NCBI RefSeq assembly: GCF_001282725.1
Contig: NZ_LN876584.1
Span: 63,122 to 127,121, forward strand
Direction of reading: 5' to 3'
Length of the DNA stretch: 64,000 bases
Origin: Inediibacterium massiliense
Lineage (GTDB): Bacteria; Bacillota; Clostridia; Peptostreptococcales; Thermotaleaceae
The notes beneath the pieces were generated by a model, which did no database searches, was not told where the DNA came from, and was given only the letters and a program-made list of their open reading frames with translations. Shown here piece by piece: positions 1,540 through 7,098 of this stretch. A program made the position numbers and the translations under genes. Numbering within the stretch: position 1 is the stretch's first letter; the number at the start of each line of letters is the position of its first letter.

Positions 1540-1620
1540 TTAAGCAACGGAAATTCTAAATGAAATGAAAGAATTTCGTTGGCGCCATGAGCAGTTCCGA
1601 TAGGAACATGCGAATTTTTT
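1540..1620 (+). ncRNA. Repeated structured RNA-like element, copy A
   Basis: Short element seen again at 9555-9650. It has a stem CAACG-G-AAATTCT paired with AGAATTT-CGTTG (one unpaired G), then GGCGCCATGAGC, then a small hairpin (GTTCC-GATA-GGAAC) and a T-rich run. Copy B keeps the pairing with different bases, which suggests a selected RNA fold. No gene starts downstream on this strand, since the next gene converges from the right, so it looks more like a small RNA or mobile repeat than a leader. I cannot match it to a known RNA family. Confidence 0.35.
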
Positions 1621-2723
1621 TATCTATATACTTTACTTACAGAATTAGAACCACTTAAATATAACATAGGTGGATAATACATATGAAAATCTATTACATC
1701 TCCAATTTTTATATCTTCTTTACAATCATGAATATCTACAATTAAATGATCACTACTACTTCCTACAATTTTAACTCCCTCCATTTGAGGAATCAATTTA
1801 TCATCAAGAGCAAAATCTTGTTTTCCTACGGCAAGTAATGCTCTTTTTCTTATTCCATGATCTTCATAAGTAGGAGCTCTTCCAAAAGCATCAATGAAAA
1901 TTTCTCCAATAGGATGAGTAGGTTTATTTTTCACTTCTACAACTTGCGCTTTTAAAACAAACGTGTCTTGGTGAAATGGACTCATATCATAGCCCCAAAA
2001 TTCATCTAAATCTTTAGCAAGTAATATTCCTTCTCCTAATCTTAGATTGTTTATTTTTTTAGGCATATGTCCATCTAATAAAAGAGGAATAGAACTTGTT
2101 GCTCCTCCAGATATGATCTCTAAAGGTCTATTGATTTTTTCTTCAATTTTTTCAGCCAACATACAAAGCTTGCCTAAATTATCTTTTGTAGGCTTAATAG
2201 ATCCATAACAGCCTAAATTTGTTCCTATACCTCCTAATTCTACATGTTGAAGTTTTTCCTCTATATATGTTGCCAATTCTATTAATTCTTCTTCTTCAAA
2301 AACTCCTTCTCTTAAATCTCCTAAATCAAACATCAACACGACTTTGTGATTTTTGTTTTGTTTTTTACATTCTTCTTCTATTCGATCTATAGTTTCTTTT
2401 TCTGAATTCAAACTAATATCCACATATTGTACTAATTCCTCAATTTCACTCATCATAGGAATTCTGATAAGCATCATAGGAATTTTAATTCCATATTCTT
2501 TTAAACTTATAATTTGATCCATACGGGAATCTGCTATATACTTGCATCCTGCCTCTACAAATTGATCTACTACTTTTGGAAGTCCATTAAATCCTTTTAC
2601 AACTCCTGCTACTTCTATACCTTTTTCATTGCAAAGGTCTACCATGTATTTTACATTGTCATAAATCTTTTTTGTGTGTATTTCAAGCATAGGATATTTT
2701 ACAGTTTCTACTATCGCTTGCAT
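1620..2723 (-). CDS. orr: Alanine/ornithine racemase-like PLP enzyme
   Basis: Predicted cytoplasmic PLP-dependent amino-acid racemase, 367 residues, with the alanine-racemase N-terminal barrel. The PLP lysine is probably in VVKGFNG near residue 35; GGATSS and NNLRLGEG fit the phosphate-binding part of the fold. The sequence resembles the clostridial ornithine racemase/YhfX-like group more than canonical Alr, so ornithine is a reasonable substrate guess but not shown. The start chosen is the ATG at 2723, preceded by AAAGGGGG; a longer reading frame would begin at 2765. It lies just downstream of a MocR regulator gene, with GGTTGG-type repeats in the gap. Confidence 0.8.
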   Translation of the reverse strand: MQAIVETVKYPMLEIHTKKIYDNVKYMVDLCNEKGIEVAGVVKGFNGLPKVVDQFVEAGCKYIADSRMDQIISLKEYGIKIPMMLIRIPMMSEIEELVQYVDISLNSEKETIDRIEEECKKQNKNHKVVLMFDLGDLREGVFEEEELIELATYIEEKLQHVELGGIGTNLGCYGSIKPTKDNLGKLCMLAEKIEEKINRPLEIISGGATSSIPLLLDGHMPKKINNLRLGEGILLAKDLDEFWGYDMSPFHQDTFVLKAQVVEVKNKPTHPIGEIFIDAFGRAPTYEDHGIRKRALLAVGKQDFALDDKLIPQMEGVKIVGSSSDHLIVDIHDCKEDIKIGDVIDFHMYYPPMLYLSGSNSVSKVYR

Positions 2724-2811: not shown

Positions 2812-2869
2812 ATTATAATACATGTTTATTTATTCCCCTCCATCCATATTGGACAATTGATACCCAACC
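2812..2869 (-). promoter_or_regulatory. Promoter with GGNTGG direct repeats before the racemase gene
   Basis: On the minus strand a TATAAT -10 (2812-2817) is preceded by 17 bp and a poor -35 (GAGGGG). GGATGG overlaps the -35 and GGTTGG lies 24 bp further upstream (2864-2869). The same geometry occurs before the lysE-like gene. Direct repeats abutting a weak -35 are typical of promoters activated by MocR/PdxR-type regulators. Confidence 0.5.
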
Positions 2870-2877
2870 AAAAGTAT

Positions 2878-2912
2878 AAAAAAAGCAACCATATTTAAAT
2901 ATGATTGCTTTT
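2878..2912 (-). terminator. Terminator of the ogt-glycosylase-MocR transcript
   Basis: Hairpin with arms AAGCAA...ATATTT and AAATAT...TTGCTT, followed on the minus strand by a T run. It begins inside the last codons of the MocR gene. Confidence 0.75.
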
Positions 2913-4343
2913 CATTCTATGAATTAATTGAGAAAGCTTTACAAGACCTGTCTTTAGCTCTTCAATAGATGCATAGGAGTAAGATATTCTCAAATAAGGA
3001 TTTTGTTCTACATCATATATATATCCTGGATACAGTAAAATTCCAATTTTGCATGATTCATCAAATAGTTTATACATATTGATTGGATCTTTTAAACGAA
3101 GCCAAACATAATAACCTCCCTTAGGAATTTCCCATGTAGCCAAAGAATAAAAATGTTTTTTTAAAATTTCCAAGGCAATATCTCTTCTTATGGCTAGTTC
3201 TTTTCTCAAAAACAAAAGATGTTCCTTATAAAGTCCTGTCTCAAGCCACTTTCCTACTGTAAATTGGGCTAAAGAGCTTGATCCATAATCTGATTGCATC
3301 TTCATATCTGCCAAATGATCAATCACAGGTTCTGGTCCTACAATCCATCCAATCCTAAGTCCAGGACTTAAAGTTTTGGATACACTTCCTACATAAAGAA
3401 CCAGTCCATGTGTATCTAAGCTCTTTAATGGGATAGGCGGCTTTTCATCAATCCACAATTCTCGATACACATCATCTTCAATGATTGGAATTTTTTCCTT
3501 CTGACAAACCTCCATAAGTTGTTTTCTTCTTCTTTGAGACATAACAATTCCTGTTGGATTTTGAAAATTAGGGATCGTATATAAAATGGATGATTTATGC
3601 TTTCTTATATATTTAGGAATAAGACTGGCTTTGATTCCTTCTTCATCCATAGGTATTCCAAACCTCTTCATTCCTACAGATTGTAAAATTTGAAGAGAGT
3701 AAAGATAAGAGGGTTTCTCTAAAAATACACTAGATCCTGGTTGCAAAATTCCCATGGCAATCAATTGAATCGCCTGAAGTGCTCCTGAAACAATAAGTAT
3801 ACAAGAAGGAGATACACAGATTCCATAGGTTTTTAAATACTTACTAATTTGTTCTCTTAAATAATACATTCCTTTTGGTTCTTCATATCCAAGATTTTTC
3901 ATTCCTTTAGCTACTTCATTTAAAATAATAGACATTTTATTTGTTGGAAACAAACTTGGTGATGCCTCTCCAGTACTAAGTCGAATCATATTGTTTTCAA
4001 ATTCCAGCTCATTAATTTGTTTGATGGTCTTAAAATTTGGAATATAAATTCCTTCTTCAATATATGCTTGCCAATTGGGTTGAATGATAGAAGGAAGTCC
4101 ATCTCTTATAATTTTCGTTCCACCTTTTCCCCGTCCCTCTATAATACCTTCTGCTTTTAATTCATCCATAGCTGCAACAATGGTACTTCTATTGACTTCA
4201 AATAGATCTGCAAGTTCTCTTTGAGAAGGAAGAACCATTCCGATGACCCATTCCCCCTCTCGAATCTTTCCTTTTACATAATCTACAATTTGCATATATA
4301 AAGGTTGTGTATCTTTTCTATGGGGTTTCCAATCAATGTCCAT
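2895..4343 (-). CDS. MocR-family regulator (GntR wHTH + aminotransferase domain), copy 1
   Basis: Transcription factor of 482 residues. An N-terminal GntR-type winged helix (residues ~8-75, QPLYMQIVDYVKGKIREGEW, PSQRELADLFEVNRSTI) is fused to a fold-type I aminotransferase-like domain. SVSKTLSPGLRIGW contains the expected PLP lysine, and NFQNPTG and EDDVYREL are further aminotransferase motifs. MocR proteins bind direct repeats and usually respond to PLP or an amino-acid adduct. The ATG at 4343 has AAGGAGG 5 bp upstream. It is the last gene of an operon with ogt and the glycosylase and sits immediately upstream of the racemase promoter, its likely target. A paralogue lies at 7102-8553. Confidence 0.9.
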   Translation of the reverse strand: MDIDWKPHRKDTQPLYMQIVDYVKGKIREGEWVIGMVLPSQRELADLFEVNRSTIVAAMDELKAEGIIEGRGKGGTKIIRDGLPSIIQPNWQAYIEEGIYIPNFKTIKQINELEFENNMIRLSTGEASPSLFPTNKMSIILNEVAKGMKNLGYEEPKGMYYLREQISKYLKTYGICVSPSCILIVSGALQAIQLIAMGILQPGSSVFLEKPSYLYSLQILQSVGMKRFGIPMDEEGIKASLIPKYIRKHKSSILYTIPNFQNPTGIVMSQRRRKQLMEVCQKEKIPIIEDDVYRELWIDEKPPIPLKSLDTHGLVLYVGSVSKTLSPGLRIGWIVGPEPVIDHLADMKMQSDYGSSSLAQFTVGKWLETGLYKEHLLFLRKELAIRRDIALEILKKHFYSLATWEIPKGGYYVWLRLKDPINMYKLFDESCKIGILLYPGYIYDVEQNPYLRISYSYASIEELKTGLVKLSQLIHRMKSNHI

Positions 4344-4353
4344 AAAATCCTCC

Positions 4354-4944
4354 TTATTTTTTAGATACAAATGGATTTTCCTTTATATAAAATCTCCAAA
4401 GCTTGTCCTTATATTCCTCTGCATAATCTATATTGATTCTCTTTGCAGAAACTATTTCTACTTTTTCATGATTATCTTTTATATAAAGCTCATCTTTCGC
4501 TACCATATCGTATCCATTGAGTTCTTTTGTAATATTTAAAGCATCACAAAGCTTTCCTGGTCCATTTGTTAGATCCTTTAAATGTTTAGACTTTATTTTT
4601 CTATTTTCTTTTAATATTTCAAATTCATTTAAAGGCTCTACCCCTCTTATGAGCACTGCTTGAGGTTCATCTTTATTGGCAGCTACAATATTTAAACAAT
4701 AATACATTCCATAAATCATATAGATATAAGCATGTCCACCCCTCCAAAACATCACTTCTGTTCTTTTTGTTCTTTTGTTGTTATATGCATGACATCCTTT
4801 ATCTAGTGGTCCTATATAGCTTTCCGTCTCTACAATTTTGCATTCAATGAAATGGTTGTCAATTTTTCTTACTAATATTTTTCCTAAAAGATCTTTTGCC
4901 AAAATCAATGCATCTTTTCTATAAAAGCTTTCATCTAACTTCAA
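4354..4944 (-). CDS. DNA-3-methyladenine glycosylase (AAG/MPG type)
   Basis: Base-excision repair enzyme that removes alkylated purines from DNA; 196 residues, the usual length of the bacterial AAG family. Recognisable parts are the N-terminal LAKDLLGKILVR, IVETESYIGPLDKGCHAY (with the catalytic glutamate of the family), MFWRGGHAYIYMIYGMYYCLN and the C-terminal LTNGPGKLCDALNI. The start is a TTG at 4944 with AGGAGG 7 bp before it. Spacing is 11 bp from ogt upstream and 10 bp to the MocR gene downstream, so the three are almost certainly one transcript. Pairing with ogt makes this an alkylation-repair unit. Confidence 0.92.
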   Translation of the reverse strand: MKLDESFYRKDALILAKDLLGKILVRKIDNHFIECKIVETESYIGPLDKGCHAYNNKRTKRTEVMFWRGGHAYIYMIYGMYYCLNIVAANKDEPQAVLIRGVEPLNEFEILKENRKIKSKHLKDLTNGPGKLCDALNITKELNGYDMVAKDELYIKDNHEKVEIVSAKRINIDYAEEYKDKLWRFYIKENPFVSKK

Positions 4945-4955
4945 AGTACTACCTC

Positions 4956-5414
4956 CTAAAATCTTTTTTCATGTTCAATCAACCATTTTTTTCTCCAAAG
5001 GCCCCCTCCATATCCAGTAAGCTTTCCATCCTTTCCAATCACTCTATGACAAGGAATCATAATGCTTATATTATTTTTATGATTTGCTCCTCCTACAGCT
5101 CTTACGGCTTTTTCATTTCCTATATTTTTTGCCAATTCTTGATAAGATATAGTCTTTCCATAGGGTATTTCTAATAATTCATTCCATACTCTTTTTTGAA
5201 AATCCGTACCTTCTAAATAAAAATTGATATGAAAATCTTTTCTTACCCCATTAAAATATTCATCTAATTGCATATATGCATTCTCTACTATTTCAATACC
5301 CTCTTTGGACTCTTTCTTCTCCTCTACAAAATGAACAGATAGGATATATTCTTCTGTTCCTATAATCTCTATGATTCCAATAGGAGAATCATAATATTTT
5401 ATATATCTTTTCAA
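4956..5414 (-). CDS. ogt: Methylated-DNA-protein-cysteine methyltransferase
   Basis: Suicide repair protein that moves the methyl group from O6-methylguanine to its own cysteine; 152 residues. The active-site motif is IPCHRVIG, preceded by the RAVGGANHKNN helix, with the GTDFQKRVWNELLEIPYGKT DNA-binding helix earlier. It lacks an N-terminal Ada domain, so it is the stand-alone Ogt/MGMT form. The start is probably a TTG at 5414 with AAGGGTG upstream. First gene of the ogt-glycosylase-MocR operon. The MocR regulator in the same transcript is not obviously a repair gene, so the link may only be co-transcription. Confidence 0.93.
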   Translation of the reverse strand: MKRYIKYYDSPIGIIEIIGTEEYILSVHFVEEKKESKEGIEIVENAYMQLDEYFNGVRKDFHINFYLEGTDFQKRVWNELLEIPYGKTISYQELAKNIGNEKAVRAVGGANHKNNISIMIPCHRVIGKDGKLTGYGGGLWRKKWLIEHEKRF

Positions 5415-5492
5415 ATCACATTCACCCTTTTTGCTTTATTGTATCATAAGGATTTCATGTGAAACAATAAAAGAGCAACCTAAAGTCGCTCT

Positions 5493-6362
5493 TTATATTT
5501 CATATATTTTCTTTTGAATTTTTTCTGCACTTCCCCCTACTTTTACCTCTGTAATCTCTTGATTCTCCGTCATAAGACTTCCCCTTATTTCTGATGGTTG
5601 ATTCATAGAGTAGCCTTGTTCAAATATCATATCTTGTGCCTTTTCTTCATTTACCTTTTTATATTTGAAAAGATAAGCACTCAAAGCTCCATTGGAAGTA
5701 CCTGTAGCAGATTCTTCTAAAATATCATATAAAGGTGCAAAGTTTCTACAATGGGCAGTGCTATCTAATTTTGTTTCTAATGTAAATACATGATATCCTA
5801 CCACATTATATTTTTTACTTACTTCTGTTATTTTATCAAAATCAGGTTTCATATGAGTGAGAGTATTTAAATTCTTTACTGGAATTAAAATATCCTTAAG
5901 TCCTGTAGATACAATTTGTATAGGAAGATCCTCTACAATATCCTCTTCTTTTATATTTAAAGAATCTACAATTTCTTTTTTATCAATAATCTCTAAAAAC
6001 TGTGGAAGAGCTTGATTCATCAAAATATTATTATTTTCTTTTATTTCAATATCTAGTACCCCTGCCTTTGTCTCTTGTTTATATTTTCCTAAACTTACAA
6101 TACCTTCTTTTAATAATACAAAGAAAGTTGCAATGGTAGCATGACCACATAAATCTACTTCTTCACTAGGAGTGAAAAATCTTACCTTAAAATCTGCTTG
6201 ATCAGATTTTTGAACAAAAGCAGTTTCAGAAAATCCAACCTTCTTAGCAATCTTTTGCATCATCTCTTCTGATAGATCATCTGCATCTATTACTACTCCG
6301 GCAGGATTTCCTCCATTCTCTGTCTTTCCAAAAGCATTTAATGTATATACCTCTACTTTCAT
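5493..6362 (-). CDS. PhzF-family isomerase/epimerase-like protein
   Basis: Cytoplasmic protein of 289 residues with the PhzF fold (two diaminopimelate-epimerase-like halves). Family features are the N-terminal NAFGKTENGGNPAGVV, GFSETAFV with the conserved glutamate, RFFTPSEEVDLCGHATIAT in the first half and ESATGTSNGALSAYL in the second. Most members have unknown substrates. Here it is 30 bp downstream of a LysE-type exporter and shares its transcript, which suggests a role in amino-acid or amine detoxification, by inference only. AAAGGAGG precedes the ATG. A hairpin at 5470-5493 overlapping the stop codon is the probable terminator. Confidence 0.9.
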   Translation of the reverse strand: MKVEVYTLNAFGKTENGGNPAGVVIDADDLSEEMMQKIAKKVGFSETAFVQKSDQADFKVRFFTPSEEVDLCGHATIATFFVLLKEGIVSLGKYKQETKAGVLDIEIKENNNILMNQALPQFLEIIDKKEIVDSLNIKEEDIVEDLPIQIVSTGLKDILIPVKNLNTLTHMKPDFDKITEVSKKYNVVGYHVFTLETKLDSTAHCRNFAPLYDILEESATGTSNGALSAYLFKYKKVNEEKAQDMIFEQGYSMNQPSEIRGSLMTENQEITEVKVGGSAEKIQKKIYEI

Positions 6363-6392
6363 TTTTTTCCTCCTTTATATAGAATATAAAAA

Positions 6393-7007
6393 CTATATAA
6401 CCATTTGAATAAAAGTATACAAAAGTTTTCCTCCATAGTAAATGATTACTGCTCCACAAATTATATTGATCCAATGAAGAACTTTAGCATTGATAGCATT
6501 TCTAAACATAGATACTATGGTAGTAATTCCCATAAACCATGAAAAGGATGCCAAACATACTCCAATAATAAACATACTTGATGCATCAGTAGGTAAAGAT
6601 GCTCTAAATCCTCCAAATAATAAAGATCCATCTATTAATGCTTGGGGATTCATCCAAGTCACTGTAAAACAAGCAATTACTACTTGCATCAGTGTTTTAT
6701 TTACATTTACTTCTTCTAGTTCTTCAGGCTTACTTTTGATTAATCCAATTCCTATATAAATAACTACTAAACTTCCAATCAAAAGAATGGCACCTCTTAA
6801 AATTTGAGATTTTTCCATTATAAGCCCCATACCAAAGAAACAAGTAAGCGCTAAAGAGATATCAAAAAAGATAGTAATCAAAGCTACTTGATAAGCCTTT
6901 ATTCTTTCTTGACTAATGGCACTATTAATCACATAAAGATTTTGCATTCCTATAGGTGCCACATAAGCAAGACCCAGCATAAATCCTTGTAATACATAAC
7001 GTAGCAT
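6393..7007 (-). CDS. LysE/ArgO-family amino-acid exporter
   Basis: Membrane protein of 204 residues with about six membrane segments, the normal size of LysE transporters, which export basic or other amino acids. The start MLRYVLQGFMLGLAYVAPIGMQNLYVI contains the family signature (APIGMQN), and WMNPQALIDGS is the second conserved block. AAAGGGGG precedes the ATG. It follows a MocR regulator gene on the same strand, and the gap contains two CCAACC/GGTTGG repeats positioned for activation of a promoter. It probably forms an operon with the PhzF gene. The exported compound is unknown. Confidence 0.9.
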   Translation of the reverse strand: MLRYVLQGFMLGLAYVAPIGMQNLYVINSAISQERIKAYQVALITIFFDISLALTCFFGMGLIMEKSQILRGAILLIGSLVVIYIGIGLIKSKPEELEEVNVNKTLMQVVIACFTVTWMNPQALIDGSLLFGGFRASLPTDASSMFIIGVCLASFSWFMGITTIVSMFRNAINAKVLHWINIICGAVIIYYGGKLLYTFIQMVI

Positions 7008-7039
7008 ATTTTTCTCCCCCTTTATTATTGTCTACCCTT

Positions 7040-7098
7040 ATTGTAAACAAAATAAAGGGAAATGTCTCCAACCAACTACACTTAAATTGTAACCAACC
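7040..7098 (-). promoter_or_regulatory. Promoter with GGTTGG direct repeats before lysE-like gene
   Basis: On the minus strand the -10 TACAAT (7040-7045) is 17 bp from a weak -35 (GAGACA) that overlaps GGTTGG at 7068-7073. A second GGTTGG is at 7093-7098, 25 bp upstream. The repeat-to--10 distance is identical to that at 2812-2869. Confidence 0.5.

Follow-up and report, generated by a model that had tools for sequence, protein, structure and literature searches.

Two MocR regulators of Inediibacterium massiliense with one predicted operator type upstream of an Orr-like racemase gene and a lysE-phzF gene pair

Within a 64,000-nucleotide stretch of the Inediibacterium massiliense genome (contig NZ_LN876584.1, positions 63,122 to 127,121; hereafter the window), two minus-strand genes, mocR1 and mocR2, encode regulators that combine an N-terminal GntR-type winged helix-turn-helix domain (wHTH; PF00392, 58.2 bits in MocR1 and 68.7 bits in MocR2, cut-off 27) with a C-terminal aminotransferase-like domain of fold-type I (PF00155, 113.5 and 124.0 bits). 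The SxSK motif of MocR2 aligns with the same motif in solved aminotransferases, MocR1 has SxSK by alignment, and the lysine of this motif is what we take to be the pyridoxal 5'-phosphate (PLP) lysine of both proteins. Each regulator gene is followed by a predicted target, and the elements in question are located in the window as follows:

2895 to 4343, minus strand: mocR1, GntR wHTH and aminotransferase-like domain (open reading frame (ORF) opens at 4370)
2840 to 2869, minus strand: operator A, distal GGTTGG (2869-2864), 18 bp, proximal GGATGG (2845-2840), repeat distance 24 bp
2812 to 2840, minus strand: predicted racemase promoter, -35 GAGGGG (2840-2835), 17 bp, -10 TATAAT (2817-2812)
1620 to 2723, minus strand: Orr-like PLP racemase (Ala_racemase_N), target A (ORF opens at 2765, likely ATG at 2723)
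8553 to 7102, minus strand: mocR2, GntR wHTH and aminotransferase-like domain
7068 to 7098, minus strand: operator B, distal GGTTGG (7098-7093), 19 bp, proximal GGTTGG (7073-7068), repeat distance 25 bp
7040 to 7068, minus strand: predicted lysE-phzF promoter, -35 GAGACA (7068-7063), 17 bp, -10 TACAAT (7045-7040)
6393 to 7007, minus strand: lysE, LysE-family exporter, target B
5493 to 6362, minus strand: phzF-family isomerase, second gene after lysE with a 30-bp gap

On the minus strand, GGTTGGGTATCAATTGTCCAATATGGATGG, AGGGGAATAAATAAACATGTAT and TATAAT follow one another in that order downstream of mocR1, as do GGTTGGTTACAATTTAAGTGTAGTTGGTTGG, AGACATTTCCCTTTATTTTGTT and TACAAT downstream of mocR2. 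The original prediction had placed repeat pairs 24 and 25 bp apart before the racemase and lysE-phzF genes, and both pairs are present on this strand; for the racemase site it had listed GGATGG before GGTTGG, whereas the transcribed strand reads GGTTGG first. It had also described a proximal box overlapping a poor -35 at the same 5 + 17 bp distance from the -10, which was borne out at both sites: the first letter of the -35 hexamer (taken with a 17-bp spacer) is the final G of the proximal box, and the -10 hexamer starts 22 bp past that box. The match of the -35 to TTGACA is 1/6 at site A (GAGGGG) and 4/6 at site B (GAGACA, the first two T being absent). The distal box lies 25 bp past the mocR1 stop codon and 3 bp past that of mocR2, and no repeat pair was found upstream of either mocR gene in the window, both arrangements being tandem.

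Counts in the own genome and in relatives were used to judge these repeats. The pair alone is weak evidence, as GGWTGG-N16-22-GGWTGG had 6 matches in the own genome vs. 3 for the reversed control. With the -10 added, the composite pattern (framed on sites A and B themselves) matched only these two sites in the 3.5 Mb genome and nothing in the control; across 16 genomes of the family, 11 of its 12 matches fell in MocR loci, the reversed control having one match. The single family match outside the MocR1/MocR2 loci lies at G008:C18:116957-117014 (L159; here and below, G numbers denote genomes and L numbers loci). Conservation of the repeats in relatives, on which the original prediction had made itself depend, was found: a pair with 23–25 bp distance flanks 69 of 111 related MocR genes (searched 500 bp upstream and 250 bp downstream of each gene), while mononucleotide shuffling gave a mean of 0.125 and a maximum of 2 in 200 shuffles. 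The 111 MocRs (the two of the window included) had > 44% identity and > 430 aa and were de-duplicated on their last 430 residues. In loci of at least 9 kb, 55 pair matches occurred in 58.5 kb near MocR genes vs. 7 in 888 kb away from them. The idea that the repeats arose by chance in AT-rich intergenic sequence and have no function, to which the 6 vs. 3 count lends something, was rejected as next to impossible on account of this conservation, the fixed distance to the -10 and the dependence on the regulator described below; the observed pairs and their geometry are real, well conserved and far beyond chance.

The fixed geometry extends across the subgroup. Among 72 sites with 22–26 bp spacing (20 tandem sites downstream of mocR, 52 divergent sites upstream of mocR and facing a divergent gene), a target-ward -10 at 22 bp was present in 20/20 tandem and 46/52 divergent sites; in the tandem ones the mean -10 match was 5.7/6 at 22 bp and ≤ 3.4 at every other offset (12–30 scanned), and the mean -35 match was 3.0/6. 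The trinucleotide AGA follows the proximal box in 59/72 sites and the distal box in 0/72, and therefore behaves as promoter rather than operator sequence. Exact 24-bp GGTTGG/GGATGG operators with a -10 at 22 bp occur in L025, L026, L028, L056, L120, and L149, and one of this type with a single mismatch in L148. The first ORF after the 72 sites was of the LysE type in 59, Orr-like in 6, aminotransferase-like in 4, another gene in 2 and not found in 1; two additional sites precede a B3/4-domain gene (G001) and an orr-like gene (G133). The LysE proteins of Bacilli loci are only 22–30% identical to the one of the window, and so the targets show more variation than the control unit does across the subgroup. 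Aminotransferase-like genes were found as the divergent target of MocR in L027, L032, L038, and L063, with 22–24 bp repeat spacing.

The operator co-occurs with an adjacent regulator (> 400 residues matched within 1.5-kb flanks). At lysE loci, taking the 30 best of the 66 matches found across 393 genomes of the order and including the window's own locus, an operator (≤ 1 mismatch in the two boxes, spacing of 22–26, a -10) was present in 12/12 loci with an adjacent MocR vs. 1/18 without (Fisher p = 1.5e-7, uncorrected for relatedness); the sole MocR-less locus with an operator, in G109, belongs to a genome with a related MocR on another contig. Within the family, the promoters of lysE (matches of at least 63%) and orr-like genes (at least 55%; racemase matches of 37–49% were excluded) carried the operator in 11/11 cases beside a MocR (the G001 orr site with one mismatch) and in 0/5 without one, two of these five (lysE of G003 and G004) lying in a different gene context. 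The one-mismatch pair at the same geometry before orr in G169 entered none of these counts.

Decay of the operator was observed in two MocR-less genomes. G002, from the window's genus, retains phzF-ogt-mpg-orr at 83–89% identity and lacks mocR1, mocR2 and lysE at this locus; its orr promoter has GATTGT in place of the proximal box and an intact -10. In G007 neither MocR is intact, and a 33-residue mocR2 remnant lies beside lysE, whose promoter keeps the distal box and has GATTGT for the proximal GGTTGG; compared with G008, this promoter has three differences from the distal box to the -10, two of them in the proximal box. The box is also lost from the G007 orr promoter, and lysE of G020, with no adjacent MocR, has one mismatch per box. 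The -35 match in these MocR-less promoters vs. their MocR-keeping relatives was 5 vs. 4, 3 vs. 1 and 4 vs. 2, and remained unchanged (3/6) in G020; an improved -35 fits what would be expected of a promoter freed from an activator. Genomes that retain the target and lack the regulator offer a natural control for activator dependence.

From these observations we infer that MocR1 and MocR2 are PLP-dependent regulators of the MocR/GabR type, each of which would bind, as a head-to-tail dimer, the two direct GG[T/A]TGG boxes that lie 24–25 bp from each other shortly past the end of its own gene. The proximal box abuts a weak -35 and is followed at a constant 22 bp by a good -10, so that RNA polymerase probably depends on the bound regulator at both promoters (class II-type activation). 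MocR1 would promote transcription of the racemase gene and MocR2 that of lysE-phzF, and an amino-acid ligand is probably sensed as a PLP adduct in the aminotransferase-like domain. It is likely that each MocR activates the downstream gene in this way, and the window very probably contains two MocR-activated promoters with one operator type. Two uncharacterised regulators would thereby gain a predicted operator, promoter geometry and target, as would, by homology, their Firmicutes subgroup, for which to our knowledge no ligands are known.

Several points weigh against activation by MocR. A proximal box in contact with the -35 would suit a repressor as well. An exact 23–25 bp pair is missing from 42/111 MocRs; of 39 without an exact 22–26 bp pair, 22 show a version that has 1–2 mismatches and is accompanied by a -10 (2.1 on average in shuffles), and the other 17 have nothing. 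The co-occurrence counts ignore the relatedness of the genomes, and G048 and G148 hold a related MocR elsewhere, yet have no operator at lysE. The -35 gain concerns three of four promoters, was noticed post hoc, and takes as its reference relatives that are not true ancestors. Repression, with binding at the proximal box shutting the promoter until an amino acid arrives, would explain the contact with the -35, and some MocRs do repress (EnuR, PtsJ). It is nevertheless unlikely, since the regulated promoters have a poor -35, the better -35 in three of the four MocR-less promoters fits the loss of an activator, and characterised relatives (activators of PLP genes, GabR, and TauR) activate their targets (PMC5320631).

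The divergent sites differ from those of the window in an inverted CCATCC-like box 4 bp before the proximal box, found in 43/52 of them (matching at 4 or 5 of the 5 letters scored); it was present in 0/20 tandem sites. Moreover, the -10 of mocR lies 5–8 bp past the distal box in 40/51 divergent sites scored, a position as expected if mocR were autorepressed. In a comparison with the tree described below, the middle box was present in 0/19 tandem sites and 19/25 others; a link between middle box and gene arrangement lacks statistical support, as the tree gives 2 independent pairs (3 counting weak branches), and sites without the middle box that count against a strict rule are L031 (G001) and five divergent sites of 22–23 bp spacing. 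In L148 (4840-4975, G001) two operators stand back to back, GGTTGG/GGTTGG toward the B3/4-domain gene and GGTTGC/GGATGG toward orr, and in L149 (8833-8862, G133), which is clostridial and has retained the inverted box, an orr-mocR operon lies behind a three-box operator (GGTTGG, TCAACC, GGATGG).

A broader reading, put forward tentatively, is that of a portable MocR activation cassette with evolutionarily separable parts. The direct boxes with a sub-standard -35 would form the activation unit, whose 22-bp distance to the -10 is preserved in front of unrelated targets (LysE of two types, the Orr-like racemase, an aminotransferase and the B3/4-domain gene), and the inverted middle box would serve autorepression and disappear once mocR moves upstream of its target. 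Upon loss of the regulator, a change of the box's last G to T would let the promoter survive, destroying the box and improving the -35 at once; two genomes show this change, each at a different promoter.

Activation from repeat operators is known from GabR and PdxR (PMC5320631, PMC6917764, PMC9452892). GabR of B. subtilis acts in a divergent promoter region at a pair of direct 6-nt repeats that flank an inverted one, activating its target and repressing itself (PMC9452892, PMC6917764), and in a synthetic promoter study mutation of the inverted box did not lower activation (PMC9452892). MocR1 and MocR2 resemble GabR in their wHTH and aminotransferase-like domains, and most divergent-site members of the subgroup, largely Bacilli, in the direct-inverted-direct layout; the window operators differ in box sequence and spacing, in the tandem position of mocR upstream of its target and in having no inverted box and no such site upstream of either mocR. 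Direct repeats near the target promoter, typical (together with inverted ones) of MocR/GabR operators, are present in the window as predicted sequence sites, whereas a divergent target with autorepression, a common though not obligatory trait, was not found there. The tandem two-box form would be a simpler system than GabR or PdxR in which to separate activation from autorepression.

PdxR (Bacillus clausii, Listeria, streptococci), whose operators have direct and inverted repeats (PMC5320631), is the closest curated model for both proteins, with 335.8 bits for MocR2 (cut-off 320) and 310.1 bits, below the cut-off, for MocR1. The score of MocR2 may only reflect the breadth of the model. The window neighbours are a racemase and an exporter rather than pdxST or pdxKU, no pdx genes were present among the scanned neighbours, and the genome's only two composite sites stand before the orr-like gene and lysE. 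Suvorova and Rodionov (2016) reported MocR motifs with two direct boxes in 70 regulogs, two direct and one inverted in 103 and alternating ones in 33, with boxes one or several helix turns apart, and named LysE/YggA-family and PhzF-related genes among the regulon targets (PMC5320631). No racemase regulon is named in the parts of that study that were covered, and GGTTGG does not occur in its main text, an equivalent in its supplementary tables being possible. A literature search for MocR together with ornithine racemase returned one paper, unrelated by title. The system as such is of an already known MocR/GabR type; the literature covered describes neither an orr-like target nor the tandem two-box form.

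Of the two targets, the racemase belongs to the same family as Orr, and a role in amino-acid racemisation, as had been proposed, is likely; its identity as an ornithine racemase was rejected. The protein reached 422.2 bits against the Orr model NF040742 (cut-off 480) and has no link to an ornithine aminomutase cluster, whereas the true Orr of the genome is a second copy (G000:C14:922075, 545.6 bits) about 4 kb from a match to OAM_alpha, a D-ornithine aminomutase subunit. This ornithine aminomutase-type cluster (G000:C14:917892-923115, L152) contains no repeat pair of 22–26 bp in the 18 kb examined around it. Four other MocR-linked racemases (G001, G006, G133, G169) likewise fall below the cut-off with 385–398 bits, and the MocR1-linked racemase points to a ligand other than an ornithine-pathway amino acid. 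An AgcS-type carrier and relatives of a glutaminase gene (Pfam-named as glutaminase in G005 only) lie near orr in G005, G006, G007, and G009, which suggests, as no more than a guess, an amino acid like alanine. As for the second target, phzF was rejected as a conserved co-target: no phzF match turned up in the 11 longer tandem mocR-lysE loci compared with the window, namely L055 (= L150), L056, L057, L059, L060, L062, L064, L070, L088, L145, and L151. Distant phzF relatives (29% and 36%) stand beside lysE or mocR in the divergent Bacilli loci L066 and L087.

MocR1 and MocR2, with 56% identity across 481 columns, are paralogues, as the original prediction stated, each adjoining its target with the same operator geometry; the further suggestion of a duplicated regulator/target module found no support. 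In a tree of 52 rows, from which no root was inferred, the 8 rows of MocR1 and orr-linked relatives (100/100) group with mostly Bacilli MocRs that have divergent targets (100/99), and MocR2 is placed among other clostridial MocRs (support for the clostridial lysE group alone being weak, 59/78). Uniting the MocR1 group with the clostridial MocR2 group in one clade was rejected by the approximately unbiased (AU) test (p-AU 0.0002), for which the groups had been named after seeing an earlier quick tree of 112 rows (with long branches, used as a lead) and in which the 18-row group "bacilli_div" includes three non-Bacilli rows (L063, L073, and L091). Because of this rejection, the simplest account of the shared geometry is inheritance from the ancestor of the MocR subgroup rather than local duplication. 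A recent duplication that copied regulator and operator, the targets diverging afterward, would agree with the identity of the two proteins, with the near identity of operators A and B and with their proximity (4.3 kb in the window, ~10 kb in G006, 4.5 kb in G008), but it is highly improbable given the tree, the family-wide occurrence of the operator, Bacilli divergons included, and the unrelated targets (an Ala_racemase_N-type racemase on one side, a LysE exporter with PhzF on the other).

Possible cross-talk between the two regulators was weighed on the proteins and boxes. The MocR1 and MocR2 groups are identical on average at 58% of wHTH positions, 73% of positions 44–66 and 54% of the remainder. 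Strictly fixed differences (8 vs. 13 rows) number 17, all beyond residue 90 and outside the wHTH, those at 129 and 444 adjoining motifs conserved in alignments with solved aminotransferases; this placement would suit different ligands for the two groups. The absence of fixed wHTH differences under this strict criterion is weakened by a looser one, by which the two groups share no residue at positions 26, 40, 60, or 76. Seven exact orr sites and the one-mismatch operator of G001 have GGATGG as proximal box (the relaxed G169 site differs), and 13/13 MocR2-group sites of the tree have GGTTGG; more distant clostridial lysE sites have GGATGG (L190, L191) or GGCTGG (L193). Residue 60 as determinant of this A/T difference is unsupported. 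The box types are retained in genomes with MocR1 only (G005 and G009, GGATGG) and with MocR2 only (G012), and since the former keep GGATGG, the A/T difference probably reflects lineage history and not insulation from MocR2. One overlapping regulon, in which either MocR acts at both promoters and racemase and exporter are co-controlled, is conceivable though doubtful: the similarity of the wHTH and of its recognition-helix region, the occurrence of just two composite sites in the genome and the use of GGTTGG and GGATGG alike as proximal box by divergent-site relatives favour it, while the four disjoint wHTH positions, the 24 vs. 25 bp spacing and the MocR1-orr module standing alone in G005 and G009 speak against it.

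The remaining features of the locus are:

4956 to 5414, minus strand: ogt, methylated-DNA--protein-cysteine methyltransferase
4354 to 4944, minus strand: mpg, DNA-3-methyladenine glycosylase, upstream of mocR1
2880 to 2913, minus strand: terminator-like hairpin between mocR1 and the racemase promoter, overlapping the mocR1 stop codon
11 to 1435: agcS, convergent

Similar inverted repeats with T runs follow mocR1 in L025, L028, and L029 (by eye, no scan). A scan of the interval between mocR2 and lysE found no terminator-like site, and some mocR2 transcripts may therefore extend into lysE-phzF. In the window, two alkylation-repair genes, ogt and mpg (4354-5414), immediately precede mocR1; the order ogt-mpg-mocR1 also occurs in L145 (11914-12983) and L147 (8887-10038), the ogt/mpg-mocR1 order is kept in G006 and G009, and G005 has mpg alone.

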